From Symbiodinium sp. CCMP2592 (Eukaryota > Sar > Dinophyceae > Suessiales > Symbiodiniaceae): a stretch of 64,000 bases of DNA. The stretch covers positions 1 to 64,000 of the forward strand of contig CAJNDT010004535.1 in assembly GCA_905221615.1 (NCBI GenBank), in the 5' to 3' direction. Numbering within the stretch: the stretch's first letter is position 1; each line of letters opens with the position of its first letter. The position numbers and the translations under genes are program-made. The notes under the pieces are model-generated. The model saw only the letters and a list, made by a program, of their open reading frames with translations. It was not told the origin of the DNA and did not search any database. Shown here one piece after another: positions 21,999-40,964 of the stretch.

Positions 21999-22016
21999 CT
22001 TTGGCGGGTTTTTGCT
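21999..22016 (+). repeat. Left terminal inverted repeat of the candidate transposon
   Basis: CTTTGGCGGGTTTTTGCT matches the complement of 40948-40964 (CTTTGGTGGGTTTTGCT) with one substitution and one indel. Weaker similarity continues inward for about 25 bp (TTATA...TCGAG..ATAT). Outside the repeat the flanks do not match. Confidence 0.6.
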
Positions 22017-22019
22017 TTG

Positions 22020-22130
22020 GTCAGTTATAACTCGAGATATACTGGACTTGTTAAGTCGAGTTATCTCGGACTTATAAGTGGAGTTTTGGTGGACTTATAA
22101 GTCGGACTTATAAGTGACTTATAACTCCGA
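22020..22130. repeat. Left subterminal palindrome cluster
   Basis: Repeated GACTTATAAGT, TTATAACTC and related words, several in opposite orientations. GGACTTATAAGTGGAG (about 22068-22083) also occurs in the right cluster near 40785-40800. Confidence 0.7.
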
Positions 22131-22166
22131 AATTGGGGATTTAGCGAGCACACATTTCGGGGTTTA

Positions 22167-22433
22167 GCGAGCACCATTTTGCGATCATGAGGGGCGCAAA
22201 AACTCGTCACGAGAAGATCATTTTGAGGTATATAGGCGGTCAGAAAATGGGTTTGGTGAGCACCATTTTGGGATCATGAGGGTCGCAAAAACTCGTCACG
22301 AGAAAACCATTTTGAGGTATATAGGTGGTCAGAAAATGCGTTTCGCGAGCACCATTTTGCGATCATGAGGGGTGCAAAAATTCATCACGAGCAAAGCATT
22401 TTGAGGTACTGCGGCGGTCAAAAAAATCATGTA
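22167..22433. repeat. 89-bp tandem repeat, three copies
   Basis: Units at 22167-22255, 22256-22344 and 22345-22433. Each begins GCGAGCACCATTTTGCGATC or a one-base variant and contains ACTCGTCACGAG, a near-palindrome. Confidence 0.9.
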
Positions 22434-22640
22434 GAGGTGAAAAAAACAGTGTTCAGAATGCCAAAATCTGCCAGCATTCAAATTATATTGTATGACAAAC
22501 GGCCACGCAGGGAAAGCCTGTAACAGATTATGTACAGGGTTGAACATGCATTTAGGGCTGGGGGTTAAACCAACTCCGTTCTACAATCTTTTTTCTTCTG
22601 CGTGCGGTTCCCCGTCGCACATGCTCTTTAAAGACTGCCG

Positions 22641-22722
22641 GGCGAAGCCACTGCCAAATGCGGAAGCGCACGCAGAGGGCGAGGCCGCCGGTAGACCTAC
22701 ATGCAAGATGCAGGGCGAGGCC
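22641..22722. repeat. Mini-hairpin cores downstream of the 520-aa ORF
   Basis: GGCGAAGCC at 22641-22649 and two GGCGAGGCC cores (22678-22686, 22714-22722) just past the stop of the minus ORF. Their outer arms are poorly complementary, so these look like decayed members. Confidence 0.6.
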
Positions 22723-22730
22723 ACTGACAT

Positions 22731-24293
22731 CTAGAGCTCGCTCACGTAGGCGCTGAGCCGCTGCCAAGAAGCTTTTGGGTTGTCCGAAAACTTGAACGAT
22801 TTGTCCTTCTTGTCGCCCCAGATCTGGACCCTCCACGCATTCGTGGTCGTATCCGTGTAGATCTTGCAGGTCTGCAACCACACCGGCGGCTTCTTTGCCG
22901 TGCCCGGGTACTTGGGCAAAGCTGTCAGCACCTTCTTCCCCTTGCCCTTGCCTTTGCCTTTCCCATGGGCTGCAGCTGCAGCTGCCTGGCCGGCGCCCTT
23001 TCCTCCGGCAGGCTTTGTTTTGGCAGGTGTGCCCTTCGCCGGCTTCGACGGCTTGGGCGAAGGAGTCGTCTCGGACTCCTTTTCAGCCTTTGCTTTGGCA
23101 GGTGTGCTGCTTGGATTTCCCTTGTTGGCCGCGAGCTGGTCCTGGAGTTTGGAGACCATCTCGTCGACACTGCGCCGGGCCTTAGGCTCGGCAGGCGTTT
23201 TCAAGGGCGAAGCCTCTTCGTCCTCCTCCAAGTCCTCTGCTTGCTGTTCCTCGTCCTTCTCCGCCACCTTGTCCTTGTCTTTCAAAGCCAGCTGCTTGCT
23301 TGGGAGCTGGAGCTCAAGCGGCACGGAGGCTTCTCCGTCCTCCAACATCTTCCGCTTCTTCGTCATAGCGAAATTTCGCAGGCCAGGGACGCCGTTCCCT
23401 TCCATGGCATTCATCAAGAGGTTGCCAAGGTGCCCTAACAGGGCACCGTGCATGTTCTCCTGAAGGCACCTGTCCTTTTTGCCGAGCTGCTGCCCAAAGC
23501 CCTTTTGCTGCACACTGTTGTGCGTGCTCCTCGCAGCAAGGGCTTTGGTAAGCCCGTGCAAGGCCGGCAAGTCCATGGGACAAGCTGCCGGCGCTTGTTC
23601 CCCGTAGGCCGCCCTGAAGAGATCACTCGGGAGATCTCTCGCACTCTCCGGGTAGTCCTTGAGCCCACTGAACTTGGACTTGTCGAACGAAGACCTGCAC
23701 AGGTCCTTCAGCTCCTGCAGCAGGTCTAAGGCCGTAACAAAATTCACATTCAGATGCTCCGGAGCACCATCGTGGCTGCCAAGCAGCAAGATGGCAGTGG
23801 CCTGCTTGAAGATTGCCTCCCTCGGATACACCAAGCCCAGGAGCTGTAGCCTGCTGGCCACCACCCTTTGCTTGCTCCTCGCGGAGGCTCTCGGGTTCAT
23901 GATGGCATCCCACTCCGCTTGCAGCAGGAAGTTGTAGAAAAAACGATGCTGTTGCATCTTTTGGTTGCCCTTGAGCTCCCGCGTGGTGGCGGAACTCTCG
24001 GCGGAACCCGTCGCCTCGATTTTTTCCTCCAAACATCGCACGATGTCCTGCTGAAAGCCATCCGGCACATCTGCCGCGGACACCTTCTCCATGGCACGTG
24101 TGGCTTCTTGAAAGCTCACTGCTCCAGGCAGCTCCTCCAGCTGCTGCAGCAGTTTCTTTTCCATCTTCTCTGCACGGCCCTCGTCCATGCCAGGCGATTT
24201 CCGGAGCATCGCCACAAAGTCCAGCATGTCTCGCACATGCTTTTCGGCCATGGATGGAGCACCGATCCACGGCTGATGAGGCGATGCCTTCAT
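22731..24293 (-). CDS. Lys-rich protein of 520 aa, function unknown
   Basis: One intact frame from MKASPHQPWIGAPSM at 24293; the second Met gives MAEKHVRDML. The N-terminal half (about 15-300) is helical (VRDMLDFVAMLRKSPGM, LKGNQKMQQHRFFYNFLLQAEWDAIM, LNVNFVTALDLLQELKDL). Next come an acidic stretch (KDEEQQAEDLEEDEEA), a Lys/Pro/Ala-rich linker and GKGKGKGKGKK. A compact C-terminal module, WRVQIWGDKKDKSFKFSD, is followed by SWQRLSAYV. I do not recognise a family. The charged tails suggest nucleic-acid binding. Its 5' end shares a leader with a second transcript (25857-26129). Confidence 0.7.
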   Translation of the reverse strand: MKASPHQPWIGAPSMAEKHVRDMLDFVAMLRKSPGMDEGRAEKMEKKLLQQLEELPGAVSFQEATRAMEKVSAADVPDGFQQDIVRCLEEKIEATGSAESSATTRELKGNQKMQQHRFFYNFLLQAEWDAIMNPRASARSKQRVVASRLQLLGLVYPREAIFKQATAILLLGSHDGAPEHLNVNFVTALDLLQELKDLCRSSFDKSKFSGLKDYPESARDLPSDLFRAAYGEQAPAACPMDLPALHGLTKALAARSTHNSVQQKGFGQQLGKKDRCLQENMHGALLGHLGNLLMNAMEGNGVPGLRNFAMTKKRKMLEDGEASVPLELQLPSKQLALKDKDKVAEKDEEQQAEDLEEDEEASPLKTPAEPKARRSVDEMVSKLQDQLAANKGNPSSTPAKAKAEKESETTPSPKPSKPAKGTPAKTKPAGGKGAGQAAAAAAHGKGKGKGKGKKVLTALPKYPGTAKKPPVWLQTCKIYTDTTTNAWRVQIWGDKKDKSFKFSDNPKASWQRLSAYVSEL

Positions 24294-24383
24294 GCAGCGA
24301 GAGCAAAACCTGACTTTGAGCCAACGGTTGCATCACACCATGCTGTGGCTTCCTGACAAGCAGCACGAAGTTATAGTTTATGC

Positions 24384-24416
<33 letters not shown>

Positions 24417-24527
24417 CCTGGGAAAAGTCAATGTGTCTCTAAGCTATTGATTTCGTAGCAAAATACATAGTGCAACCGGTTGCGTTTTGCATTTTTTCAG
24501 CATAACCACATGCCTGTCTACAGAGGC
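24249..24527 (-). repeat. Shared 5' leader module, copy 1
   Basis: Nearly identical to 25857-26129. Both encode M(K/R)ASPHQPWIGAPS at the start of a minus ORF, then a (GTA)n tract and a block containing the 12-bp palindrome GCAACCGGTTGC (24472-24483 here). A partial third copy with the same palindrome (24653-24664) lies at about 24598-24712. Confidence 0.85.
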
Positions 24528-24590
24528 AGTAGTACTAGCAGTAATAGTATAGTACTAGAAGTAGAAGTAGCAGTAGTAGCAGCAGAAGCA
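24384..24590. repeat. (GTA)n trinucleotide repeats
   Basis: Perfect run near 24387-24416 and a degenerate one at 24525-24590. Shorter runs recur at about 25994-26006 and 26658-26680, each upstream of a minus-strand ORF. Confidence 0.85.
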
Positions 24591-24763
24591 ACAAATTAGC
24601 TGGGAAAAGTCAATGTGTCTCTAAGCTATTGATTTCGTAGCAAAATACATAGTGCAACCGGTTGCGCTTTGCATTTTTTCAGCATAAGCACATGCCTGTC
24701 TACAGAGGCTACAGTGTCCAAGGCTTCAACAATCAACTGCGAAACTAGTTTCTGCAGTGTTGC

Positions 24764-25080
24764 CGCGATTTGTATGCAAGACTTTGTACTTTGTCTTGCA
24801 TTAACTGGAACCCATTAAGGGTCCGATTTCTGGGATCTGGCTCTACGCAGACTCCTATTCCGGGCATGCTGCAGGCGAAGCCTTGCAGCATGCCAAACTA
24901 CTGCAGGCAGAGCCTTGCAAACCCGTAGCCTGCTCAGTCCAGCTCGTTGAGGAAAAGCTCTTGCGGTCCTTGGTGCTGCAGGCCTTGGTCCTGCAGAGCA
25001 GCTGCTGGGCTTGCGGGCTCTTCCGGCCCTTGGTCCTCCTGCCCTTGGTCCTGCAGTGCGGGATCTGAAGACTTCATTGG
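24764..25080 (-). repeat. Shared 3' module, copy 1, with hairpin
   Basis: Closely matches 26703-27000. In the sense direction it encodes a Gln/Glu/Pro tail ending GPQELFLNELD, compared with GPEELFFNELD in the other copy. The downstream part holds the hairpin at 24863-24894. Confidence 0.8.
24863..24894. repeat. Mini-hairpin, 11-bp perfect arms
   Basis: Arm GGCATGCTGCA, core GGCGAAGCC, one T, arm TGCAGCATGCC. The core is itself a hairpin with a GAA triloop. The homologous site at 26811-26842 carries one arm mismatch. A second, shorter hairpin (TGCA arms, core GGCAGAGCC) follows at 24902-24919. Confidence 0.85.
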
Positions 25081-25084
25081 GCAT

Positions 25085-25609
25085 CTATAGGTTACCAATG
25101 ACATTTACCCAACGGCTTTCGCAGCTCCTCATCTCTTTCACAGCAATGCTCTTGTGTTTGCGATAGGCTGGTCTCACGACATCCGGATCGCACTGTGCTT
25201 CATTGGCAATGGCGAAAGAAATCAAGCCACATATTCTCATTGAGGATGGGAGTGGAACCCTGCATCCCTCGATCTTCTCCAGCCAAGCATAAGCCACAGC
25301 CAGAACACCGTGAACCACGGACATCTTGAGCCCTGTCCTTGCAGCCATAGCCTTCAAAACATCGAGCTCCCCCGCCAAAGCCTGGAAAAAAAACTGATAA
25401 TCAGCAGCAGCAGCAGAAGACTGTACTGGCATTGCTTGCCACCGGAAGAGATGGGTCATCTGCACAGAAGTCTTCTTCCGGAGCCTGAAATGAGGCACCT
25501 TCCGGTTGTGCTTGCCGATTCTGTTGCCCGGATCGCATTTCTTGCAGACATTAGCTGGGGGTCGGCGATAAGTTAGTCGAGGGCAGCTTTTGCATTTCCA
25601 GCCAGCCAT
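25085..25609 (-). CDS. Small protein with zinc-ribbon-like N-terminus
   Basis: 174 codons from MAGWKCKSCPRLTYRR. C-x2-C-x13-C-x2-C (CKSC...CKKC) at residues 5-25 suggests a structural zinc site. A basic segment (GKHNRKVPHFRLRKKTS) and a helical C-terminal half follow (FFQALAGELDVLKAMAARTG, ICGLISFAIANEA). The upstream minus ORF 25573-25902 carries the shared leader MRASPHQPWIGAPS and may be its first exon. No family recognised. Confidence 0.55.
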   Translation of the reverse strand: MAGWKCKSCPRLTYRRPPANVCKKCDPGNRIGKHNRKVPHFRLRKKTSVQMTHLFRWQAMPVQSSAAAADYQFFFQALAGELDVLKAMAARTGLKMSVVHGVLAVAYAWLEKIEGCRVPLPSSMRICGLISFAIANEAQCDPDVVRPAYRKHKSIAVKEMRSCESRWVNVIGNL

Positions 25610-25856
25610 GGCAGCAAAGATTTTCTACAGCTGCATTGGCTTTGGGATTGCGTTGGTACGATGCCTCTTTTTGTGATGGCCAAATCGGAAACCCCGAAGG
25701 AGAGATGGTAGGCCAAAGCCTGCAACAATGCTTTAGCTAGGCATGCTGAGCTACAGATTAGAATCCAACTCCGACTGATGCCCAGAACCCAAAGTGCAGC
25801 AGGTTGTGCATCGAGTTCTTCCATGCACAGAAACAGGTAAGCTTGTTTGTTTCCCA

Positions 25857-26129
25857 GACTGGATGGAGCACCGATCCACGGCTGATGAGGCGATGCCCTC
25901 ATGCAGCGAGAGCAAAACCTGACTTTGAGCCAACGGTTGCATCACACCATGCTGTGGCTTCCTGACAAGCAGCACGAAGTTATAGTTTATGCGTAGTAGT
26001 AGTAGTACCTGGGAAAAGTCAATGTGTCTCTAAGCTATTGATTTCGTAGCAAAATACATAGTGCAACCGGTTGCGCTTTGCATTTTTTCAGCATAAGCAC
26101 ATGCCTGTCGACAGAGGCTACAGTGTCCA
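25857..26129 (-). repeat. Shared 5' leader module, copy 2
   Basis: Second copy of the leader block at 24249-24527. It includes the ORF start MRASPHQPWIGAPS, a shorter (GTA)n run and the palindrome GCAACCGGTTGC at 26063-26074. Confidence 0.85.
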
Positions 26130-26153
26130 AGGCTTCCCTGTCCAGCTCACGGC

Positions 26154-26468
26154 TCATGGCTCTTGCCGGTCCCACCGCTTCAGGATGGCACCAAAATCAT
26201 CACTCATCTTTGTCACATCCTGCACTGCTTCATACAATGCACGCACCGTGCACTTAAGCCCGTCCACAAGCTTTTGAAGTTCTTTCTTCTCCTCGCGCTC
26301 CTTCTTGATCGTGGCTTCCAGTGTTTGGATCCGCAGCTGGAGCCAGTACACCTGATTTTCCAACTGCTCAGGCTCCGGGTCTTCCATCATGCTTTGCGTC
26401 TCCAAGTCGTCCTCCTCGATATGTTCCGACATGCGGCGCAGCACGTGTGAGTGCGGTGGAGCTTCCAT
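26154..26468 (-). CDS. Short coiled-coil protein
   Basis: 104 aa from MEAPPHSHVLRRMSEHI. The middle is a clear coiled coil (LENQVYWLQLRIQTLEATIKK then EREEKKELQKLVDGLKC) with heptad spacing of Leu, Ile and Val. Immediately upstream in the mRNA sense lie two mini-hairpins with AGAA/TTCT arms. No family recognised. It could be an exon of a larger gene. Confidence 0.55.
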   Translation of the reverse strand: MEAPPHSHVLRRMSEHIEEDDLETQSMMEDPEPEQLENQVYWLQLRIQTLEATIKKEREEKKELQKLVDGLKCTVRALYEAVQDVTKMSDDFGAILKRWDRQEP

Positions 26469-26471
26469 TAC

Positions 26472-26523
26472 GAGAAGGCGAAGCCTTTCTCTGGAAGTTC
26501 TAGACGAGAAGGCAAGCCTTTCT
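26472..26523. repeat. Two adjacent mini-hairpins upstream of the coiled-coil ORF
   Basis: 26472-26491: arms GAGAA and TTCTC around GGCGAAGCC plus T. 26507-26523: arms AGAA and TTCT around the shortened core GGCAAGCC plus T. They sit in the presumed 5' UTR of 26154-26468. Confidence 0.8.
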
Positions 26524-26702
26524 GTGACAAAGCTGGAGCCAGAAACTCATCATGACTACATGTTGCAGGCACATGAAATTTGGAAGCCTTTGCCTTCCAC
26601 CATCGTTCGACGGACCATGCTAAAGGTGGTGGATCCCAGGTATATTTATATACATAAATAGTAGTAGCAGTAGTAGTAGTGTTCCTGCTCTGTTTTTACC
26701 CG

Positions 26703-27000
26703 CTGCTGCGATTTGTATGCAAGACTTTGTCTTGCATTAAGTCTTGCGTAAACTGGAACCCATTAAGGGTCCGATTTCTGGGATCTGGCTCTACGCAGAT
26801 TCCTATTCCGGGCATGCCGCAGGCGAAGCCTTGCAGCATGCCAAAGCTTCTGCAGGCAGAGCCTTGCAAACCCGTAGCCTGCTCAGTCCAGCTCGTTGAA
26901 GAAAAGCTCTTCCGGCCCTTGGACCTGCAGAGCAGCTTCTGGGTTTGCGGGCTCTTCCGGCCCTTGGTCCTGCAGTGCGGGTTCTGGGCTGAGCTCTGGA
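26703..27000 (-). repeat. Shared 3' module, copy 2
   Basis: Second copy of 24764-25080. It forms the C-terminal tail and downstream region of the 26883-27506 ORF and includes the mini-hairpin at 26811-26842 (11-bp arms, one mismatch). Confidence 0.8.
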
Positions 27001-27506
27001 GCCGGTTCGTCTTCTGCAGGAGCTGCAAAAAGCAGCAGGGCTGGAGGGACCGGAGGTTCCAGCGGCGTCAGCGTCTCCACCAAGTCTTCGATTGTCCAAA
27101 CCAGAGGTGGCGGATACGGCAGCTCCGAGATGTCGCGGGACATGGCAAGAAGAATCCGCGAGTTGTGTTCGCTGAACCCTTGCATGACATATCCCTCCGC
27201 GACCCAGGTGAAAGCAACCATTGCTTCATACACCCTGTGGGCCTTCTCTTCGTTGGAGGGGATTGTCCTCGACAACCAACCAGGCACTGCCAGCCGGAGA
27301 GTCGCCGCCGCGATCTTGTGGCCAAGCCCGAACCGTGGGCATCGCGGGCATGGGCGGAGCTCATCCGCATGAAAAGCGGAATGCCCCAGGTCTATGACCT
27401 TGTAGCCCGCCCCATGCAGACGGTCCAGGCCATCAACCAACTGGTTGATGTCCAAGAGGCGAAGGCGGCGCTCAAGGCGGTGCACAACTTCCATGTGCAC
27501 GTCCAT
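26883..27506 (-). CDS. Unrecognised protein with repetitive acidic tail
   Basis: 207 codons from MDVHMEVVHRLERRLRLLD. The N-terminal 130 residues look folded (INQLVDGLDRLHGAGYKVIDLG, VPGWLSRTIPSNEEKAHRVY, ILLAMSRDISELPYPPP). The tail repeats ALQDQGPEEPANPE and ALQVQGPEELF and is shared with the 3' module at 24764-25080. No domain recognised. Module sharing suggests recombination or gene conversion with the neighbouring transcript. Confidence 0.6.
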   Translation of the reverse strand: MDVHMEVVHRLERRLRLLDINQLVDGLDRLHGAGYKVIDLGHSAFHADELRPCPRCPRFGLGHKIAAATLRLAVPGWLSRTIPSNEEKAHRVYEAMVAFTWVAEGYVMQGFSEHNSRILLAMSRDISELPYPPPLVWTIEDLVETLTPLEPPVPPALLLFAAPAEDEPAPELSPEPALQDQGPEEPANPEAALQVQGPEELFFNELD

Positions 27507-27728
27507 GTTGCTACCTATACACGGGCCTAAAGAAAGCCCGGGCGAGCCTCAGGCAAAGGAGCTTGAGGAGAAATGCCGATGCCACTCGCACATGAGAAGA
27601 AACCCAAGTTTTTAGATTTAGGGCTTCGGGGGGTTGTATACATAGATATAGGACAAGGCTTTCAGGGTTGAGGCCAGCGTGGCGAACCCAAGCTTTTTTC
27701 CAAAAGCTCGCCCATGTGCACGTGCCCT

Positions 27729-27748
27729 TGCAGGGCGAAGCCTCTGCA
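27729..27748. repeat. Mini-hairpin, TGCAG/CTGCA arms
   Basis: TGCAG, core GGCGAAGCC, T, CTGCA. It lies just downstream (mRNA sense) of the stop of 27775-28355. Confidence 0.85.
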
Positions 27749-27774
27749 CCACACGGGCTAAGCCGCTGAGCCCT

Positions 27775-28355
27775 TCAGCTGCCCAACATGGCCTCGACCA
27801 TGTCGCAATTGATCTGGGCAAAATTGGTCATGCTGGTAGACAGCTCTTTCAAGGCGTTCTTGAGGAAGTCGACTTGCCGCTGCAGGGCCTCCACCTCACA
27901 TCGCGACTTGGACTTCATGTAGTCCATCTCGCGGCTCAAGTTCTCGATCATGTGCAAGAGCTGCAGCGGTCCTGGCCCTTTGACATCTTCCGTGTCGCTG
28001 GAGCTGCTGAGCTGCAGGAGGAGTCCAACCGCCTCAAGGCCACCCTCAGTCCTTCCTCGTCGTCTGAGGCTGCCTCCCTTGGGCGCTTGGAGCCAGCTGG
28101 CTTCGCAGCTGGCTTGGGCGCTGGCCCCGTCACCTCCAGAGGCACAGCTCGCCCCACAGCCACAGCTGTTGCCTCCACAGGCACAGCTGGCCCCACAACC
28201 ACAGTTGTTGCCTCCACAGGCACAGCTGGCCCCACAACCACAGTTGTTGGCTCCGCCAGCCTCACAGGCACAGCTGGCCACACAGCCACAGCTGCTGGCT
28301 CCGACAGCTCCAGAGCCGCAGCCGGAAACTCGGAGCTTGCACCTGTCCCCGCCAT
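27775..28355 (-). CDS. Pro/Val-repeat and coiled-coil protein, frame broken or spliced
   Basis: Two overlapping minus frames each look coding over different halves. From 28355, MAGTGASSEFPAAALEL leads into 13-residue repeats (VVVGPAVPVEATT) and an NLS-like KRPRE with SDDEEGL. From about 28010 the other frame takes over with SSSSDTEDVKGPGPLQLL and a coiled coil (CEVEALQRQVDFLKNALKEL) to the stop at 27775. A 1-bp indel or a very small intron near 28000-28040 would join them. The 39-bp coding repeat (three to four copies) is visible in the DNA. Function unknown. Confidence 0.5.
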
Positions 28356-28654
28356 CTTTCAGGAGGCAAGGCCTTCCGTTCCAAAACCTTTGCGAGCCAG
28401 AAAAAACTCTCGGATTGCAGGCAAACTGAAAGCAAGCCGCAGAGCCTTACAGATCCAACACGGTATAAAAGATGGCCGCAAGGAGCAGTGCAAGCCTTTC
28501 TAGAACGTGTTATTCAGAAGCATTACATGTATGACTTATTTAACCCCCAAAGCACCCCAACCCACAAATGTTGCGAATTGTGTTTTTGTGCTGGATTTCG
28601 GTTTCATTTTTCCACTATTTCTAGACATGGGTCGGACATCCATGGGAAAATTCA

Positions 28655-29865
28655 GGGTTCAGGGTGGGTCCGGGGTTCAGGGTTGTGGGTTTGGGGTTGG
28701 TAAGCAGTGGTGCGAAGTGTGCTTGTTTTTGCATGGATTTCGGTTCATTTTCCACTTTTTTAGACATGGGCAGGGCTCAGGGTTATGGGTTTGGGGTTGG
28801 GATGCAGTGAATGCAATAGATTCTTTTGGGCGTGGGAATTGATGGTTGTATTTCGAAGCTGACGCAGGGGAATGGGGTTTTGGTGAGGGGGTGGATGGGA
28901 AGGGGGTTTGGGGGGGTTGTTGGGGGGTTGGGCACATGGGCTGTGACCGGAATTTGGGGGTTGGGTTGGGAATGGGTTGGGGGTTGGGGGGTTGTATAAA
29001 GGGGCTGTGACCGGGGGTTGGGGGCTGTTGGGGGGTTTTGGGGCTTGGACTGCAGTTGGGAATGGGGTTGGGGGGGTTGGGTGGGGGGTTGGCTGCGATC
29101 TGAAATTGGGGGCTGGGGGCTGCAGGTTTTTGGGCTTGGACTGGGTTGGGAATGGGGTTGGGGGCCTTGGACTGCAGTTGGGAATGGGGTTGGGGGGGTT
29201 GGGTGGGGGGTTGGCTGCGATCTGAAATTGGCGCTGGGGGCTGCAGGTTTTTGGGGCTTGGACTGGGTTGGGAATGGGGTTGGGGGCCTTGGACTGCAGT
29301 TGGGAATGGGGTTGGGGGGGTTGGGTGGGGGGTTGGCTGCGATCTGAAATTGGGGGCTGGGGGCTGCAGGTTTTTGGGGCTTGGACTGGGTTGGGAATGG
29401 GGTTGGGGGGGTTGGGTGGAGGGTTGGGCATGGGCTGCGACCTGAAATTGGGGGCTGGGGGTTGGGTCTGGTGGGGGGGGTTTTGGGGCTTGGACTGCAG
29501 TTGGGAATGTTGGCTGCGATCTGAAATTGGGGGCTGGGGGCTGCAGGGTTTTGGGGCTTGGACTGGGTTGGGAATGGGGTTGGGGGGGGTTGGGTGGAGG
29601 GTTGGGCAATGGGCTGCGACCTGAAATTGGGGGTGGGGGTTGGGTCTGGTGGGGGGGATTTTGGGGGTTGGACTGGGTTGGGAATGGGGTTGGGGGGGCT
29701 TGGGTGGGGGGTTGGGGGGCTGGTTTTTTTGGCTGGGACGGGGTTGGGAAGGGGGTTTGGGTGGGGCTGGGCATGGGCTGCGACCTGAATTTGGGGGCTG
29801 CGGGGCTGGGTCTGAAATCGGGGTTTTGGGGCTGCAAGACGGGGTTGAGGGCTGAAGAAGGCGGG
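28655..29865. repeat. G-rich satellite, about 1.2 kb
   Basis: The plus strand is made of GGGTTGGG and GGGGTT words with recurring CTGCGATCTGAAATTGGGGG at intervals of roughly 80-122 bp. The 122-bp period is clearest at 29094-29460. Runs of G suit quadruplex formation. The Pro-rich minus ORFs of 386-561 codons here are repeat translations, not genes. Confidence 0.9.
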
Positions 29866-30168: not shown

Positions 30169-30249
<81 letters not shown>

Positions 30250-30309
30250 TTTTTTTTTTTTTTTCTTTGTTTTTTCTCTCCTCTTTTGGTTTTTTTTTTG
30301 TTTTTTTTT

Positions 30310-30351
<42 letters not shown>

Positions 30352-32289: not shown

Positions 32290-33290
32290 GCAAGCGACAG
32301 CAGCGATAGCACATGCGGGGCTGCATTTTTGCATGGAGCTGCGACCAAGCAGAATGCGTGCATGCAGGGGCGGGCAAAGCCTCACCCGCGGTCACATGCT
32401 GCAGCTCCTCAGAAGTCAGGCAGGCCTGGAGGGATCCATCGGCCTTTTTGCCATATATGACTGCCCTAACACCGTCCGTCAGCAGCGTGAGGCAGGGTCG
32501 GCCACGACTGTGAAAAACGTTGTCCCCCACGTGCTGCCGCAGGTTGGCTTGTGCCAAGTAGGAATGCCGTCCAGACATGACGACGGCACAGAGCAGAGCC
32601 TGCACTTCCCCAATCATCTTCTCCTCGGGCCAGAAAACCTCCGAAGGCCAAGGTCGACTTACATTTGAATGAGGGTTGCAATTACATGCACACATGTATA
32701 TATATATATATACAATACAGCCAGCTCATGTTTTTGCCAGGACACGACATCACCGGTGAAGATGCGGCCAGTGGGGGTGACCATTGTCCTGGCCGCCTGA
32801 ACACCAATCACATCGGTGCCCAGAAGAGAGGCCACGACCTCTTTTGCCCACGGCACCTCACGTATGGGCTCCAGCAAGAAGTGGGAGCGGCAGACATCCT
32901 CTGTTGCAAAGAAATCCAAAAGCTCCGCCCCCAGTCTGAGGGCAATGTGCTGGCTGATCGTAGGGCCGGTGACGTGGCTGGCAATGGCCTTCACAGCTCG
33001 ATGCTTCCTCTCTGGCGCGAAACAGCTGTGGACTGCATCGAATTTCAGCACTTGTGCCGGAAGATGAAAAAGCCAATGGTATTTTGGCTTGCGGCACCCA
33101 GGATAGAGCTCGGCATAGAGCAGGTTGTGCTCGGTCACGGCCTCTTCGAGAAGCACCGCCTTGCGAGCTGCGGAAGACGACAAGATATCCAAAATGTCGC
33201 CGAGGAGCTTCATGCAGCGGCAGTGCTGGGGAAGAAGACCGGCCGGGTCCAGCACGGTCTGGACAAGGGCCACAAGAATCGTGACCGCCA
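32290..33290 (-). CDS. TNP2/CACTA-like transposase, C-terminal exons, cut by the gap
   Basis: Two exon-like pieces. The one ending near 32735 (from the gap) carries QTVLDPAGLLPQHC, the KPKYHWLFHLP segment and the ERKHRAVK motif, ending FTGDVVSWQKHELAVLY. The next (about 32650-32380) has FWPEEKMIGEVQALL and a C-terminal beta-rich tail. A (TA)n tract separates them, probably in an intron. The sequence is the same as in the full copy at 35160-37545, and the 5' exons are absent because the contig stops at 33290. Confidence 0.75.
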
Positions 33291-33390
33291 NNNNNNNNNN
33301 NNNNNNNNNNNNNNNNNNNNNNNNNNNNNNNNNNNNNNNNNNNNNNNNNNNNNNNNNNNNNNNNNNNNNNNNNNNNNNNNNNNNNNNNNN
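33291..33390. other. Assembly gap of 100 N
   Basis: Exactly 100 N, the usual placeholder for a gap of unknown size. ORFs crossing it with X residues are meaningless. Confidence 1.
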
Positions 33391-34965
33391 AATTATAAGG
33401 ACCTTTTTGGCTCCCCGACTGCATGCGTCATGATCTCTTGATTAGAAACTGCCGGGGCGAAGCCACCTGGCACACACATCACTCCAGAGGCGAAGCCTCC
33501 GCGCAGGCATGACGAGTTTCCTGGGGGCAAACCACCAGGAATCAAAATCTCTGCCCGCCCTAAAGATCTTAGGGGCTGAGTATACATAAGCAACCTTTAG
33601 ACTTTTGGGCCCCATTTTAACCCTATTATGGACTCAGCCCCTAAAAGCAAAGAAGATCTAGACGGATTTGAAGGCCGCCGCTTGCTCCACCTGCAGCTTC
33701 AGCCGGGCGGTGGCTGAGGTGATGCTGTTCAAAACCTTGTCCGCCTGGTCCAGAACGTCGTTGACGATACCATGGTCTTCGTCCAAGAGCTTCTCCACCT
33801 CCTCCTGGGCCGCCAAAGCCTCGGCGATCGATGCCCTGCCTGCGTCGCAGACATAGGCCGGCACCATGCCCTCGAACTTCTCCGCCCTGGACAGCAAGTC
33901 CAAGCACTGCATCCGCTGCGATGCGACGGCCTCCATCTTTTTGTTGATCTTGCTCCGATCACCCTTCTTGAACTTGGGCAAGTTGTCGCCGCCTTTGCCC
34001 TTCTTCTTCTTGAAGATCGCCTTCTTTTCAGCGGCCTTCTCTTCAGCGGCGTCCTCCAGCTCCTCGGCCAGGTCCTGGTGGCAAGAGGTTGACCTTTGCC
34101 TCTTCTTGCCCTTCTCCACCACATCCTCGTGGGAGGACTTGTACTTCATGTCCTCGAAGAGGGTAACTCCTCTTACCCTGTCAAAGATCTGCTTGCAGTT
34201 TCTTTTCACATTTTCGTACTGCTCGACACCATCCGGCTTCTCTTTGTAGCGAAGCCAGAGATCATGATCGTCGAGGAACTCGCCCGTGCCTTGGAAACTG
34301 CTCCTCGACATCTCCGTCGACCAGCTCTGGACAGTTTCTTCGAGCTTGACAACCAGCTCCCTCCCCCTCAGGTGCCCAAACTCTTTGAAAAAGTTTTGCA
34401 CAGCTCCGCGATCGTCGATCTTGCCAAAGTCCTGCACAAGCCCGTCATGGGCCCGGCTTAAGCGGGCTACAGCCGCTTTGCTGCTGTGGCACTTGCGGCA
34501 GCGAAGGGTCTGCTGACCCTTCGTGTGCCTGACACAGGTCACGGACTCCGTCGACTCCTGTCCACAGGTGCAGCAGATGAACGGCACGGGGTGCTTGTTG
34601 GTCGGGACCATCGGATGCACGGCCGGCACCATCAAAGAGCCCAGATCGGCATCGCCAGGCACCACTTGCAGTTGCCCGTCAACTGCAACGGCTGCCTCGG
34701 CTGAGGTCTCTGGCTCCTGTTTGGCCACCGAAGCGGGCGAAGGCTCGGGCCCCTGCTGGCTTGCAGGCTGCTGGGTCTGTGGCTCCCCTGCAGGCACCTG
34801 GGTCTGCTGCGGCTCCACAACCGTCTCCGCGAGCTGTGTCTGCTGCGTCGCTGCCCCCATGGCTTCAAGAGGCGAAGCCTTCGGAGCAACAGAAAACTAT
34901 CGAGGCGAGGCCTTCGAGGAAGGCCAGCTGTTAAGCTTGCTGTGTATATATATATATATATATAT

Positions 34966-35001
<36 letters not shown>

Positions 35002-36110
35002 GCGGCAAGCATGTATAATCATAAATCAAAAACGGTTTAGGTTTTACATTTGAGGGTTTCTGGGGTTTAAAGGCTTCGATCGAAAAACAATGCAAGCGAC
35101 AGCAGCGATAGCACATGCGGGGCTGCATTTTTGCATTGAGCTGCGACCAAGCAGAATGCGTGCATGCAGGGGCGGGCAAAGCCTCACCCGCGGTCACATG
35201 CTGCAGCTCCTCAGAAGTCAGGCAGGCCTGGAGGGATCCATCGGCCTTTTTGCCATATATGACTGCCCTAACACCGTCCGTCAGCAGCGTGAGGCAGGGT
35301 CGGCCACGACTGTGAAAAACGTTGTCCCCCACGTGCTGCCGCAGGTTGGCTTGTGCCAAGTAGGAATGCCGTCCAGACATGACGACGGCACAGAGCAGAG
35401 CCTGCACTTCCCCAATCATCTTCTCCTCGGGCCAGAAAACCTCCGAAGGCCAAGGTCGACTTACATTTGAATGAGGGTTGCAATTACATGCACACATGTA
35501 TATATATATATATAGATAGAGAGAGGAAAATACAATACAGCCAGCTCATGTTTTTGCCAGGACACGACATCACCGGTGAAGATGCGGCCAGTGGGGGTGA
35601 CCATTGTCCTGGCCGCCTGAACACCAATCACATCGGTGCCCAGAAGAGAGGCCACGACCTCTTTTGCCCACGGCACCTCACGTATGGGCTCCAGCAAGAA
35701 GTGGGAGCGGCAGACATCCTCTGTTGCAAAGAAATCCAAAAGCTCCGCCCCCAGTCTGAGGGCAATGTGCTGGCTGATCGTAGGGCCGGTGACGTGGCTG
35801 GCAATGGCCTTCACAGCTCGATGCTTCCTCTCTGGCGCGAAACAGCTGTGGACTGCATCGAATTTCAGCACTTGTGCCGGAAGATGAAAAAGCCAATGGT
35901 ATTTTGGCTTGCGGCACCCAGGATAGAGCTCGGCATAGAGCAGGTTGTGCTCGGTCACGGCCTCTTCGAGAAGCACCGCCTTGCGAGCTGCGGAAGACGA
36001 CAAGATATCCAAAATGTCGCCGAGGAGCTTCATGCAGCGGCAGTGCTGGGGAAGAAGACCGGCCGGGTCCAGCACGGTCTGGACAAGGGCCACAAGAATC
36101 GTGACCGCCA
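33391..36110 (-). repeat. 2.7-kb duplicated segment, right copy
   Basis: It starts at the first base after the gap with AATTATAAGGACC, the same word that follows the poly-T tract at 30609. It ends matching GTGACCGCCA, the last ten bases before the gap. Confidence 0.95.
33658..34860 (-). CDS. Zinc-finger and coiled-coil protein next to the transposase, right copy
   Basis: 400 aa from MGAATQQTQLAETVV, differing from the left copy by a few residues (for example start MGAA against MVAA, EPQQ against ETQQ, IFDRV against ILDRV). Same zinc site, basic stretch and neighbourhood: transposase exons begin about 300 bp upstream in the mRNA sense. The low divergence suits an allele or contig overlap rather than an old paralogue. 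Confidence 0.75.
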   Translation of the reverse strand: MGAATQQTQLAETVVEPQQTQVPAGEPQTQQPASQQGPEPSPASVAKQEPETSAEAAVAVDGQLQVVPGDADLGSLMVPAVHPMVPTNKHPVPFICCTCGQESTESVTCVRHTKGQQTLRCRKCHSSKAAVARLSRAHDGLVQDFGKIDDRGAVQNFFKEFGHLRGRELVVKLEETVQSWSTEMSRSSFQGTGEFLDDHDLWLRYKEKPDGVEQYENVKRNCKQIFDRVRGVTLFEDMKYKSSHEDVVEKGKKRQRSTSCHQDLAEELEDAAEEKAAEKKAIFKKKKGKGGDNLPKFKKGDRSKINKKMEAVASQRMQCLDLLSRAEKFEGMVPAYVCDAGRASIAEALAAQEEVEKLLDEDHGIVNDVLDQADKVLNSITSATARLKLQVEQAAAFKSV

Positions 36111-37545
36111 CCAGCATCTCCGAGCCAAAGCCTCTGATGCAAGAGTCGGGCTGCATGCATACCCGGTCCTGGAAAAAGGTCTTCGGCAGGGAGGTGTAGC
36201 ATGCTGGCAGCTTGAACGTGTTTGCGAAGTCGTCGAGAAACTCGAAGCTCAGATTGCAGGTCGTCTGCAACTCCTTCGCAAACTCGTTCACCTCGTACTG
36301 GCCCACACCCGAGCTCGCAACGAGCACATGCATCCAGTCATACATGGTCTGCTCGACGTGGTTCAGCATCGGGAGACGAGGATTCCACAGGGCGCCTCAA
36401 AGGGGGCTGCATGCTGAAGTGTAATGATTCCAGGCTCTGTGTCCCTGTGTGTTTTTCGTTATTAGAACTCTCTGCCCTTAAATATAAGAGCGAAAGGCAA
36501 ACAACCACATACATCAGACTGATTGTTTGGTCATGCACACCCACCGGGCCTTTGGCGTGGTACTGCAGGCCACAAAGCTGACCGAGCTTCTTCTGCTCGT
36601 TCGGGCGGTGTGCCAAATCGGCCAGGTCTCGCACCATCGTTTTGCCAGTATCCGACGTGTGCAGCTGGAAGCGGTCCTTGTCAGAGCTGCTGACATGAAC
36701 CAAATAGTCGTGGTTGGCAATGGATTCGGGCGACATCCTGCCTACCACGTTCGCACAGCAGAAACAGGGCTTTGTACCATTCTCACCAGTGAGGTTCCAG
36801 AGCTGTTTGAGAGCCTTGGCATCGGCAATCAAGAATCCAAACTTGGGCTTGAAGTTAAAATGCCCGGACCTCCTGCTGAGCGGGAGGCCTGTTGCAAAGT
36901 TGAGGCCGTCCTGCTGCAGGTCGAAGAAGCACTCCAGCATGAGGCCGAAGAGAAAGCTGTAGCCGCCCTCGACATCTGAGATCTTGCTCGTTGGAAACGA
37001 GCCGAAAAACAGCCATCCTCAGGGAGTTTGATGAAACATCTCACCCAATTATACATGACAGCTACGTTTGTCCTGATCCCGATCCGCGTATTTTAAGCAT
37101 CCCTGGCCTTGGTCTCTGCCGACAAACCAGGTCGGTAGCTCTTTCAGAGTCCAATAGAAGGCCAGCTGCTCTCGACCTTTATCAGGCCTCAGCACATTTC
37201 CTGGCACAATCTCGTCTGCGTATACCACCACGTTTTCACAGACGGCCACGAGGTCGCCGAAGTTTCTGTTGATGCTGCACAGTCTGTGCAGCAAAGCAGC
37301 TGGCCGCAAAATGTGCCACTGCCATGGCTCACCATCGAGTGGCACAGTTAAAGAATCCAGACTCTGCCACATGGCCCGTCCTCCTCCAGCGGTCTGCGGA
37401 GGCCTTCACGAATGACCTTCCTTTGATGATCCAGATTCTTCCCTGAGTCCTGCAGGTCTGCAAGCGTAGAGAAGGAAATCGCCCTTGGCAGCTTCTTCCT
37501 CGGCGTCTCAGCCTGCAAGGGGCGCTTCAGCGCCATCCATGGCAA
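35160..37545 (-). CDS. TNP2/CACTA-like transposase gene, about five exons
   Basis: Exons inferred in mRNA order. E1 37545 to about 37382 begins MPWMALKRPLQAET. E2, about 37372-37110, has WHILRPAALLHRL and YADEIVPGNVLRPDKGR (first catalytic Asp candidate), then AFYWTLKELPTWF. E3, about 37020-36530, has EGGYSFLFGLMLECFF, FLIADAKALKQLW (second Asp) and GTKPCFCCANV. E4, about 36395-35555, has EQTMYDWMHV, YHWLFHLPAQVLKFDA and APERKHRAVK (Glu). E5, about 35460-35160, is a beta-rich tail. The order matches the large transposase-like family I know from dinoflagellate genomes; placing it in CACTA is inference. Exon ends are approximate. Confidence 0.72.
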
Positions 37546-37553
37546 AGGTGCTC

Positions 37554-37605
37554 ATGTCAGGCGAGCCTTGACATCCACAGAAATGGTCAGGCGAGGCCTT
37601 GACCA
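37554..37605. repeat. Two mini-hairpins upstream of the transposase start
   Basis: 37554-37574: ATGTCA, core GGCGAGCC, T, TGACAT. 37584-37605: TGGTCA, core GGCGAGGCC, T, TGACCA. Both have perfect 6-bp arms of different sequence. They lie just 5' of the first transposase exon. Confidence 0.85.
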
Positions 37606-37710
37606 AGCAGGCTTGCTCCTAACATATCTCGCAAAGGATCTGAGTTTTTACTCTGTATGCATATTTGTATATAGATACATCTACACGTTTTAGGGTTCAG
37701 CGTCTATCGT

Positions 37711-37735
37711 TTAAGGGTTTAGGGTTTAGGGTTTC
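37711..37735. repeat. Interstitial telomere-like repeat
   Basis: Two tandem TTTAGGG units (37718-37731) with degenerate ones on both sides and a further TTTAGGG at 37689-37695. TTTAGGG is the reported dinoflagellate telomere repeat. More scattered single units occur at about 38390-38420, 38521-38535 and 38581-38610. Confidence 0.7.
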
Positions 37736-37934
37736 AGGCGGGCACTGTGCAAAAGGGTTTCTGCTTTTGTATGCTTCAACTGTATACGAGCCGATAAGAG
37801 CTCAAAACATCGAATCACCAATTCCTCGCTCACACAGAACATGCAGATGTGTGGCATGCATGCGTGCATAAAAAGTTGAGCCCTGTTTTCCATGGCTGTG
37901 TGCATGCATGGCGTGCTGCGTGCATGCACATGCG

Positions 37935-37952
37935 GGCGGGCGAAGCCTCGCC
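37935..37952. repeat. Mini-hairpin, GGCG/CGCC arms
   Basis: GGCG, core GGCGAAGCC, T, CGCC. It is located 3' of the acidic ORF ending at 37996. Confidence 0.8.
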
Positions 37953-37995
37953 GATTAAAGCTGCTCCAGGTCTCTTGCCTGAAGTCTCACACTCT

Positions 37996-38690
37996 CTAGC
38001 CTTCCCTCGGTTTCTTGAGAGGTGGGGCAGGCCAGCTACGAGGAAACTGCGAAGGCGAAGGGGCCTTGCTCTTGGACCCTACGCCTGGCAAGGGCACGTC
38101 CTCCTCCTCCTGCGCCTCTTTGTCGGGGCAGTCCGACGGCACGGGAGGCTCCTCCTCCGCTTCACTGCCGGGGCCAGCCTCCGACGTGGGAGAGAGGTGC
38201 TTCTCCTGCGGCAGCACCGGTGTTTCCTCGTAGTCCACCTGCATGTTGTTAAGTCTTAGGCTTTTTTTGGGTTCAGGGTTTCTCCCTAATTATATTTTAT
38301 AAGTTTAGGGCTTATAAAAACGGGCCTCCTCCTCTTTCATCGGTAGATCTTGCCCCGCAGGTGCGGCTTTGGCCACCTTCAGGGTTTAAGGATGGAATAT
38401 TGGATTTAAGGTTTAGGGCCCGGCCTCCTCTTCCTCCTCTGCCTCCTTTTTCGCCTGCACCTTGCCCGGCGGGGCTTCCTCAGCTTCTGAGCTCTCGGAC
38501 GAGTCTGAGCCGACCTTCAGGGTTTTAGGGTTTAGGCTTATTATATATAGGGGGGTTTTGGTTGAGCCTGGTTGAACCCACGGTTTAGAGTGTAGGGTTT
38601 AGGGGTTTATGGTTTGGCCTTCGGCGCCGGCTTCACTTCGACAGCGGCGGGAGCAGCGGGCTTTCCGAGCTGGCGGAGCTCGCCTGTCGG
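37996..38690 (-). CDS. Acidic low-complexity protein in small exons
   Basis: The last exon (37996-38244) encodes QVDYEETPVLPQEKHLSPTSE, then AEEEPPVPSDCPDKEAQEEED. Upstream minus pieces look like further exons: VGSDSSESSEAEEAPPGKVQ (to about 38517), VAKAAPAGQDLPMKEEEEA (to about 38380) and TGELRQLGKPAAPAAVEVKP (about 38610-38690). Two of them follow the same word AACCCTGAAG immediately before GT, suggesting a shared 3' splice-site context within telomere-like intron sequence. Disordered and highly acidic. No family. Exon order and completeness are uncertain. Confidence 0.4.
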
Positions 38691-38808
38691 TTGTTGGCAG
38701 GATTTGAGGCGTATCTATGTCTCTATATAAAGATATATGTATAAAGGAAGAGTAAAGATGTATATATAAATTTGTATGTATACATATATATATATATGTG
38801 TGTACCCT

Positions 38809-38850
38809 TGTGCAGAAGCCCAAGGGCGAAGCCACAGGTGCTTCTGCACA
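38809..38850. repeat. Mini-hairpin with 11-bp outer arms
   Basis: TGTGCAGAAGC and GCTTCTGCACA are perfect complements, enclosing CC/GG pairs, short mismatched spacers and the core GGCGAAGCC (38825-38833). Confidence 0.85.
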
Positions 38851-38851
38851 T

Positions 38852-40060
38852 TTACTTGTAATCACACAGGCGAAGCCATGTGTGATTACAACTTGCATGT
38901 GTGTTAGGCCCGGCCTCGTCGGAGGAGCTGCTCCGGGCCTTTGGCGGCGGCGGCCGCAGCTGCAGCTTGTGCATTGCCTGCAATGCTGCTTCTGCTTGTC
39001 TGGCCGCGTTTTCCGACCTGGCCGCTGCAGCTTCCGCACGTTGAGCGGCCTGCAGCCAGGGATCAGGCAGCCCTGGCACTAAAGGCGGTGGCGCGAGGAA
39101 GCCTTGCCCCAAAAAGCCAGGTTGCTGGTCCAAAAAGGCAGGTTGGGCTGGGAAGGAGGGCTGGAACGGCGGGGGCGGGGCTTGCCATGCCTGCGGGAAG
39201 GCTTGGGGCCAGGGTGAGGTGGGTGGCCTGGCTGCTGGCGGCGGGCGAGGCCTCGCCGGCTTCGCTCCTGGAGCTGGAGTGGAAGCGGCCGCTGGCGAGG
39301 CCTTTGCCGGGGGCTTTGCCTTGGCTGACGCTTCTATGTACCGCCAAGCCATGGACAAAGCCTCCGGCAAGTGACCGTCTTTGGGGCCGGTCAGGACCAT
39401 GGCTCGCCCCTGCCAGGAGTTCCTCAAGCGAAGCGAGACCCTCATGCCCGTGGCCTGAAAGATCTCGCTTCGCTCAGCGGCCGTCAGGGTCCCCGCCTGG
39501 ACCTCGTAGGGCCCATCGTAGACTTCGTCTACGATGGGCCCCTCCTCCTCCTCCTCCTCCTTTCCTTTCCCTTTCCTTTCCCTTCTTCTTTCACCTCCTC
39601 TTGGAGGCCCTCCCCTTTTCCTTTTCCCTTCTCTGAGGGATCCTCTTCTTTGACGTGCTTTCCTTTTCCTTTGTCTTCGGGGCACTTCCCTTTTCCTGTT
39701 TCCTTTCCCTTCTCTTCGAGGTCCTTCCCTCCTTTTTTGCTTTTTCCAAGACCCTTCTCTTCTGGGCGCTTCCCTTTTCCTTTTCCCGGACCCTTCTCTT
39801 CGGAGTCCTTCCCTTCTCCTTTTTCCTTTCCCTTTCCCTTCTCTTGGAGGTCCTTCCCTTCTCCTTTTCCTTTTCCCTTCTCTTCCGGGTCCTTTCCTTC
39901 TCCTTTTCCCTTTCCCTTCTCTTCAGGGTCCTTTCCTTCTCCTTTTCCCTTTCCCTTCTCTTCAGGGTCCTTTCCTTCTCCTTTTCCCTTTCCCTTCTCT
40001 TCAGGGTCCTTTCCTTTTCCTTTTCCCTTCGCCGCGGACTTCGCCGGGAGCTTGTCCATG
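38852..40060 (-). CDS. Lys/Gly-repeat protein with a KH-like segment, frame break near 39590
   Basis: From MDKLPAKSAAKGKGKGK (40060) one frame gives four to five 13-residue repeats (KDPEEKGKGKGEG) and more Lys-rich sequence, ending in poly-Arg at 39529. A second frame (to 38852) starts inside it and continues EEEEEEGPIVDEVYDGPYEVQ, then SEIFQATGMRVSLRLRNSW and GRAMVLTGPKDGHLPEALSMAW, a KH-domain-like pattern, followed by Pro-rich sequence and an Ala-rich helix. One indel in the purine-rich DNA near 39540-39600 would fuse both halves. Likely RNA- or DNA-binding. KH assignment is weak. Confidence 0.5.
38856..38891. repeat. Mini-hairpin with 13-bp perfect arms
   Basis: TTGTAATCACACA, core GGCGAAGCC, A, TGTGTGATTACAA. 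This is the longest perfect member of the family. It overlaps the last codons of the minus ORF ending at 38852. Confidence 0.9.
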
Positions 40061-40220
40061 GCGACCGCAACGAAGCAGCTGTGCCGCTGCTGAGGTTTCA
40101 GGAACTTGCCTGCATGTTCTATATATGCCATGGGCTTGCACATGTGTCTGTCTGCAGTGCGTCTGGCTTCGTGTGTGTCTGTCTGCTGTGTCATGCGTGC
40201 TGCTATGCCCATGCAGTGCA

Positions 40221-40272
40221 TGCAGGGGCGAAGCCTCCTGCACAAGATGCACGGGGCGATGCCTCCATGCAT
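40221..40272. repeat. Two mini-hairpins upstream of the Lys/Gly-repeat ORF
   Basis: 40221-40242: TGCAGG, core GGCGAAGCC, T, CCTGCA. 40247-40272: ATGCACGG and CCATGCAT (one mismatch) around the variant core GGCGATGCC. Confidence 0.85.
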
Positions 40273-40429
40273 TCATTTAGAGCCACGTTCACAGCGGATT
40301 TGGAGTTCGGGTTTGAGGTTAAGACGGCTTGGGGTTTGGGGTCAAGGGCCCGGTTTCGGGTAGCATCGTTTGGTTCTTGGGCTGGCAGATTTTGGCATTC
40401 AGCTGGCATGTTTTTGCAACTTACAAGTG

Positions 40430-40675
40430 TCAAATTTTCGACTTCAGGTATGCGTTTTTTTGAGTTTGGGTGAATTAATTTTCGACTTGAGGCTAATTTT
40501 TTTTAGGTTTGAGGGAGTTCAATTTTCGACTTCAGGCGACGTTTTTTTTTGGTTTTGGTGCGGTTAAATTCTCGACTTGAGGCTCGTTGTTTTTTTGTTT
40601 TGGGGGGGTTGGATTTCGGACTTCAGGCGACGTTTTTTTTGGTTTGGGCGGTTCAATTTTTGGCCCACGGATACA
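40430..40675. repeat. About 45-bp tandem repeat, six copies
   Basis: Units share CAATTTTCGACTTCAGG followed by a T-run and GGTTTGGGxGGTT. Alternate copies read CTTGAGG or CTTCAGG. It is the right-end counterpart of the 89-bp array near the left TIR. Confidence 0.8.
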
Positions 40676-40689
40676 ATTTTCGGGAAATA

Positions 40690-40935
40690 GCGTTGCGGGG
40701 GCGTCGGAGTTATAACTCCCAGCGAGTGGACTTACGGCGGACTTATAACTCCCACTTATAACTACTTAGCGAGGACTTGACTGGGACTTATAAGTGGAGC
40801 CTTAACTCCTTCAATTAGTTATAAGGCAAATATAACTCTGTATGGACTTACAACTCACTTGCTATGTCAATACACTACTTATAAATGGCCTTGCATGATT
40901 TATAATTGCACATGACCGACATATAACTCGACATA
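40690..40935. repeat. Right subterminal palindrome cluster
   Basis: Contains the perfect palindrome GGAGTTATAACTCC (40706-40719), GGACTTATAAGTGGAG and at least six further ACTTATAA or TTATAACT words. Its vocabulary matches the left cluster at 22020-22130. Confidence 0.7.
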
Positions 40936-40947
40936 TAAGTACGGAAC

Positions 40948-40964
40948 AGCAAAACCCACCAAAG
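40948..40964 (-). repeat. Right terminal inverted repeat of the candidate transposon
   Basis: AGCAAAACCCACCAAAG, the inverted counterpart of 21999-22016. Flanking bases outside (TTG here, TTT on the left) do not give a clear target-site duplication beyond TT. Confidence 0.6.

Follow-up and report, generated by a model that had tools for sequence, protein, structure and literature searches.

We analysed a stretch of 64,000 nucleotides from Symbiodinium sp. CCMP2592 (contig CAJNDT010004535.1, positions 1 to 64,000; hereafter the window), in which a preliminary description had proposed that the interval 21999-40964 is a giant DNA transposon with its genes on the minus strand. The interval is delimited by terminal inverted repeats (TIRs) of 17-18 bp, CTTTGGCGGGTTTTTGCT on the plus strand at 21999-22016 and CTTTGGTGGGTTTTGCT on the minus strand at 40948-40964, and its termini read CTTTGG..CCAAAG and do not begin with CACTA, as had been noted. 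Inside the left TIR lie short palindromes (22023-22126; AGTTATAACT, three copies of ACTTATAAGT, and ACTTATAACT), followed by 2.8 copies of an 89-bp tandem array (22160-22408). The right end presents the mirror order, with a 45/88-bp tandem array at 40433-40660, ten palindromic sites found under a relaxed rule at 40708-40940, and then the TIR. The genes between these ends are indeed on the minus strand, and the main ones encode the lysine-rich ORF1 protein (open reading frame 1; 22731-24293, 520 amino acids), a zinc-finger protein (30876-32078, 400 amino acids, C-x2-C ... C-x2-C-H), a transposase (35150-37540) and a lysine- and glutamate-rich (K/E-rich) repeat protein, about 80 amino acids of which form a conserved stretch (38855-40272). 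An assembly gap of 100 N is present at 33291-33390.

Within the window, the TIR pair is weakly unusual: its score of 11 was equalled in 41 of 2000 Markov simulations and in 53 of 2000 random window pieces. Because this test is weak, we used copies elsewhere in the genome as evidence for the TIRs and for the limits of the interval, by means of exact and end-query searches. The genome searched was the window's own assembly (1.098 Gb, 5383 contigs), whose contigs are designated here by C-numbers, the window being C4534. The right TIR occurs exactly 31 times, against 2 occurrences for its reversed control, and the left TIR 30 times. A looser TIR pattern gave 74 matches (31 right, 30 left and 13 other strings), against 17 for its control. 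A 182-bp query taken from the left end produced 36 matches, every one of which begins at base 1. The corresponding 275-bp query of the right end produced 32, of which 30 span the full query and 31 reach its last base; the match on C2336 consists of the outer 106 bases and stops at a gap, and the right end on C2347 is diverged or decayed and has lost the outermost TIR. The genome total for the element is 36 left and 31 right ends, and all the ends displayed have CT..AG termini, neither CACTA nor CA..TG.

Pairs of a left and a right end oriented towards each other are present on 20 contigs, the window and 19 others. Fourteen of these contigs are C451, C649, C655, C1057, C1979, C2104, C2336, C2447, C4312, C4534, C4952, C5132, C5287 and C5294, and the remaining six (C447, C3, C583, C3891, C2857 and C4957) are counted when TIR variants or insertions are allowed. 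The distance from end to end is 15.4-16.1 kb in 11 of the 20 pairs. Longer pairs are those of the window (19.0 kb), C5132 (18.5 kb), C649 (22.3 kb), C1057 (28.4 kb), C4957 (37 kb) and C447 (65 kb), and shorter ones those of C2336 (7.5 kb, containing a gap as well), C3 (9.5 kb) and C2857 (11.8 kb). Near-identical copies of the element sit in unrelated flanks and end sharply at the same base. The interval 21999-40964 is a real mobile element bounded by its TIRs, a finding that is firmer than first stated.

The element in the window is flanked by the dinucleotide TT on both sides (21997-21998 and 40965-40966). These flanks are single-copy: a query joining them matches at the left with its positions 1-159 and at the right with 158-273, overlapping by exactly TT. 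Among the 19 pairs whose flanks are both readable (C4952, whose left flank is N, was omitted), 16 have the same 2 bp on both sides, namely TA in eight, TT in three, AA in two, and GA, TG and CA in one each. When the flanks were permuted, the mean number of agreements was 5.6 and the maximum 14, and 16 was reached in none of 100,000 permutations; agreement over 3 bp was found in one of the 16 duplicated pairs (C1057). The pairs without a duplication are C1979, C4312 and C4957. The right flanks of C4312 and C4957 are also found beside other copies (on C2447 and C160, respectively), and these two joins are doubtful because a right flank common to another contig is expected of mis-joined repeats. 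The pairings on C451, C5287, C2104 and C2447 are less certain, as their flanks recur on another contig. On C447 (99915-165402) the transposase and zinc-finger genes, usually about 1.5 kb apart, are separated by about 51 kb with TT on both sides of the copy, so that either a large insertion is nested in this copy or the scaffold is wrong.

Flanks shared by different partners (C451/C5287/C2049, C2104/C4312, C2104/C634, C2447/C4312 and C160/C4957), together with a gap-associated duplication in the window itself, are what would be seen if the interval were a segmental duplication or an assembly artefact, that is, a long repeat whose ends were copied with it by chance. Such an origin would not account for copies in unrelated flanks ending sharply at one base, for 2-bp duplications of which half are not TA, or for the single-copy flanks of the window, and we regard it as very improbable. 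In the right flank of the window there are local repeats as well: 41116-41260 and 41821-41965 are 93-94% identical and about 705 bp apart, and a stretch of 406 bp (41561-41966 and 45574-45979) is repeated at a distance of 4 kb with 99.8% identity.

The bases that follow the gap at 33291-33390 are nearly identical to those from 30609 onwards (30609-33290 compared with 33391 onwards), and the roughly 2.8 kb next to the gap is an assembly duplication. Since this duplication inflates the 19-kb length, the true length of the element in the window is about 16.2 kb. A similar duplication surrounds the gap in C5132, so that the excess length of both copies is explained: the assembly repeats sequence at gaps within the element. 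The zinc-finger gene is duplicated accordingly at 33658-34860 of the window, and duplicates are also present on C649 and C1057.

The left ends of 16 aligned copies (of the 36 known, all picked for an exact TIR) are 99.3-100% identical over 590 bp and invariant in the first 130 bp. The right ends of 22 copies have a median identity of 98.8%, with a minimum of 85.4%. Because the main group of copies is near-identical, the element must have been recently active. In an older subgroup (C3, C583, C3891, C2857 and C4957) the left terminus reads CTTTGGTGGGTTTCTTGC, and C3891 differs from it by two more substitutions. A search for internally deleted, non-autonomous copies had been proposed, and at least one exists: the copy on C3 has 9.5 kb between its ends and CA on both sides, and it has kept the zinc-finger gene and lacks the transposase region. 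It would have moved in trans, or have been deleted later. The copy on C2857 has no match to the searched transposase exon among the matches listed. The window copy looks defective from its reading frames, and sequencing error may lie behind the frame breaks; intact copies are present elsewhere in the genome.

The clustering of palindromes just inside each end was borne out: allowing at most one mismatch, ACTTATAAGT occurs 10 times against 0.6 expected, a number reached in none of 100 shuffles. The window has 16 TTATAA motifs, none of which falls outside the interval, and 12 are no more than 260 bp from a terminus. The spacing of the palindromes is near whole helical turns with p = 0.018 for the relaxed set and p = 0.074 for the strict set, which is suggestive of helical phasing. 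The hairpin family had been described as confined to the interval, and GGCGARGCC, which caps these hairpins, is found there at all of its 23 sites (22641-40235, all on the plus strand, with unrelated stems) and at none in the other 45,034 bases. Its reverse complement occurs once, overlapping the site at 39244, and 18 of the 23 sites are outside the listed coding stretches. Only part of the 19 distinct sites fold better than their shuffled flanks (mean z -1.6), the strong hairpins being those at 24874, 26822, 38825, 38869 and 40227 (z -2.7 to -6.3).

The limits of the transposase gene are approximate, its exons having been placed by homology and not by transcripts. Homology supports exons at about 37540-37085, 36983-36520 and 36385-35530, and a fourth, at 35485-35150, is tentative. 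The gene adjoins that of the zinc-finger protein, as had been proposed. The protein has the catalytic-type motifs YADE, ADxKA, C(2)C, DWMH, H(3)H and ERKH, the E standing 18 residues after H(3)H. Six aligned transposases, those of the window, C175, C57, C46, C2502 and C4896, all keep Y.D, D, C(2)C, D..H, H(3)H and E, the window sequence being 26-43% identical to the other five; that of C175 is cut just after its E. One exon has at least 131 matches in the genome (127 of 536 candidates scored), with families beyond its own at about 45%, 36%, 31%, 28% and 24-27% identity. The transposase pieces and the relatives scanned have no Pfam match at E values up to 10, searches of the PDB by sequence and by profile gave nothing meaningful, and no relative of the transposase was found in viral and prokaryote collections. 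No Pfam match backs the designation "TNP2-like". For the CMCT group, the signature described in the literature is C(2)C with H(3)H (PMC12730594), and the motifs point instead to a DDE enzyme of the CMC/CMCT group (CACTA/EnSpm-Mirage-Chapaev-Transib). Because the family is invisible to Pfam, repeat annotation based on domains would miss it.

Giant elements, often with extra genes, are also known among the Kyakuja-Dileera-Zisupton (KDZ) transposons (PMC12477816), and this genome does encode KDZ transposases. However, the 25 matches to the KDZ model (PF18758) include none at a locus of the window transposase or of its relatives listed, and the duplication of 2 bp differs from the 7 bp of Kyakuja and the 8 bp of Zisupton (PMC12730594), so that a KDZ element is, as far as this model reaches, highly improbable here. 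The 25 KDZ loci include some with very long open frames (up to 1919 amino acids). Likewise, large size and several genes would fit an element derived from a virus, of the Maverick/Polinton or Teratorn type; among the open reading frames of the element that were scanned against Pfam or NCBIfam, no viral polymerase, capsid, integrase or packaging match was revealed, which together with the 2-bp duplication leaves this origin next to no probability.

The lysine- and glutamate-rich proteins had been regarded as cargo. The distribution of their relatives speaks against this for ORF1 and the K/E-rich protein, which co-occur with divergent transposases. ORF1 has at least 83 genomic matches (83 of 2908 candidates scored), of which 32 are 25-32% identical. 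In counts of partner loci that exclude near-identical family copies and second exon pieces, 30 of the 32 divergent ORF1 loci, 7 of 9 divergent zinc-finger loci and 5 of 7 divergent K/E-rich loci are on the same strand as, and within 40 kb of, a divergent transposase. The relatives are 25-48% identical, and the proximity expected by chance is about 0.003 per locus. Moreover, C2502, C3335 and C5122 have these genes arranged as in the window: K/E-rich protein, transposase, zinc finger, ORF1. Because distant relatives of these three proteins adjoin similarly distant transposases, we consider them partners rather than cargo; judging from this co-conservation, they look like part of the machinery. 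Distant cousins within one genome can in this way separate machinery from possible passengers, and the role of the extra proteins becomes testable.

The position of ORF1 relative to the transposase varies: it is downstream in the larger families, whereas a compact group, comprising 15 of the 32 ORF1 loci, has it upstream at a nearly uniform distance of 3.0-3.5 kb. A compact cousin family, in which only about 3.4 kb, with little variation, separate the ORF1 relative from the transposase, was observed on 11 contigs (C1280, C1435, C1491, C1610, C1751, C1857, C2406, C3224, C3746, C5078 and C713). This family is probably young, a smaller element belonging to the same lineage, whose ends could be defined most easily there.

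Genome-wide, 32 matches cover the zinc-finger gene over its full length without interruption; they are 93-100% identical, and some of them are assembly duplicates. The K/E-rich gene is read in the window from two overlapping frames (38855-39922 and 39529-40272), and 16 of its 19 other near-complete matches have a single open frame of 448-521 amino acids. The frame is supported by substitutions among six copies, with 17 synonymous changes against 10.0 expected and 19 nonsynonymous changes against 25.4 expected. For the comparison of nonsynonymous with synonymous change (dN/dS) among copies, only the zinc-finger and K/E-rich genes offer more than a few changes, and the other genes gave too few changes or weak signals.

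The remaining candidates for cargo are ORF2 to ORF5, all on the minus strand and possibly passengers. ORF2 (25085-25609, 174 amino acids) has pairs of cysteines, zinc-ribbon-like by eye, and a sub-threshold Pfam match alone (E 0.054), and ORF3 (26157-26546, 130 amino acids) is coiled-coil-like by eye. ORF4 (26883-27506, 207 amino acids) is essentially restricted to copies of the element: nearly all of its 41 genomic matches are in such copies, the exceptions being a match on C5310 (46% over 49 residues) and a 91% fragment on C1125 with no known end beside it. For ORF5 (27775-28281, 168 amino acids), the substitutions give no evidence of coding (0 synonymous of 7).

Cut-and-paste features are present, namely TIRs with fixed ends in many copies, a 2-bp duplication in 16 of the 19 pairs read and an internally deleted copy. 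Together with the gene core, they lead us to interpret the interval as a recently active, non-canonical CMC-like giant DNA transposon of about 16 kb with a conserved set of genes, a reading to which we give a probability of about 0.85. According to this model, the DDE transposase would cut at the ends of CTTTGG..CCAAAG, and insertion would take place with a 2-bp stagger, at TA in half of the sites read. At least one of the zinc-finger and ORF1 proteins, which are equal candidates, would bind the subterminal palindromes, bridging the ends and positioning the transposase; the likeliest arrangement is modelled on TnpA of En/Spm. Defective copies, such as that of the window and that on C3 without a transposase, would have moved in trans, if at all. 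Dinoflagellates are hard to transform, and an active element would be a possible starting point for a gene-insertion tool.

A number of observations weigh against this reading or parts of it. As to mobility, a joined-flank search for an empty site, which the preliminary description had proposed to look for, found none for the window locus in its own assembly; C1979 lacks a duplication and has no explanation; the 19 pairs are not all independent, C451 and C5287 having the same right flank; the duplication on C2447 falls within a TG repeat where four bases agree; and inconsistent flank joins on some contigs make the pairing partly limited by the assembly. As to the genes, the first transposase exon (exon A) of the window is frame-shifted relative to all six other copies read, the K/E-rich gene of the window is split over its two frames, and frame-breaking indels disrupt transposase exon C in 7 of its 26 copies and the K/E-rich segment in three of the six copies tested. 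Selection is weak across near-identical copies (an omega-like value of 0.78 for the zinc-finger gene, with 0 stops against 1.8 expected). As to the partners, the 30 of 32 ORF1 loci include two on C1280 separated from the closest transposase by 19-38 kb, and several divergent partner loci are neighbours on one contig (C1280 for ORF1). Finally, no above-cut-off match in Pfam, NCBIfam or PDB sequences ties the transposase or its partners to a known family, the CMCT assignment is one of motifs read by eye against a published description and not of a tree or fold comparison, the helical phasing is no more than suggestive, and the zinc-finger and ORF1 proteins are candidate binders of the palindromes.

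Outside the element, the window contains a PIF1-like helicase on the minus strand (1-1735, E 1.8e-42) and, on the plus strand, a weak reverse-transcriptase match (8998-10800, E 0.018) and a CCCH zinc-finger protein (10910-12316, E 2.8e-5). A GC-rich tandem array of 20 copies of 67 bp lies at 7319-8661 beside GT-rich repeats. A DinoSL relict, searched for in the window at up to five mismatches, was not found.

The element and its cousins might constitute a lineage of DDE transposons that is undescribed, ranks as a superfamily and depends on an obligatory machinery of several proteins, a proposal that we make tentatively and at odds below even. It draws on the transposase and ORF1 remaining together down to about 27% identity, and on the zinc-finger and K/E-rich genes joining them, with gene order preserved, in families about 64% different (C2502, C3335 and C5122). 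If it holds, a transpososome of several proteins would assemble at the palindromes, and this would be the reason why the elements stay giant. A search of titles and abstract openings in the literature, whose hits were partly listed and whose scope did not extend to Repbase, returned no description of the element, which is not proof that it is unpublished.

Conversely, the element could be an ordinary giant algal CACTA/EnSpm element whose termini and accessory genes have merely drifted. Its size and gene number match those of the giant EnSpm/CACTA elements of the red alga Chondrus crispus (16-20 kb, 4-5 ORFs; PMC6431247), giant EnSpm elements of Ectocarpus, where KDZ elements are giant too, reach 15.2 kb (PMC12477816), the C(2)C and H(3)H signature is present (PMC12730594), and subterminal inverted motifs with a DNA-binding protein are typical of CACTA elements (PMC2613891). 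However, CT..AG is found in every end displayed instead of CACTA or CA..TG, the duplication is of 2 bp and not 3 bp, and PF02992 (Transposase_21) matches nothing in the genome, control genomes being likewise blank, nor in the six relatives. We consider this explanation less likely than not.

The spacing from the second D to the first C of C(2)C in the window transposase is 19 residues, the same as in RAG1; RAG1 has H(4)H, whereas the element has H(3)H, and the PDB profile search gave no detectable sequence match. ESTA, Mirage, Plavaka and Lanisha likewise have C(2)C and H(3-4)H placed after the second D and before the E, and they have short duplications of 2-5 bp, with TA in ESTA and 2 bp in PlavakaA (PMC12730594). 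Compared by description, their termini are mostly CA..TG (TGT..ACA in PlavakaA) and not CTTTGG..CCAAAG (PMC12730594). The TnpA/TnpD system of En/Spm resembles the element in combining a transposase, a candidate DNA-binding partner and subterminal repeats; its proteins are products of alternative splicing (PMC2613891), while here there are separate frames, palindromes of the TTATAA type and a binder that is only a candidate. Fungi and algae (red, brown and green) are reported to harbour giant DNA transposons, and the accessory genes of those of Ectocarpus are mostly of unknown function (PMC12477816). The giant EnSpm elements of red and brown algae are alike in size class, in having several genes and in a presumed DDE transposase; by description, the element differs from them in its CT..AG termini, its 2-bp duplication, the lack of a Pfam match and three extra genes that are partners kept across divergent families. 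The kind of element is thus known, that of the giant algal EnSpm, of which it is at least a variant, set apart by its termini, by the length of its duplication, by a transposase that goes unrecognised and by the partners conserved with it.

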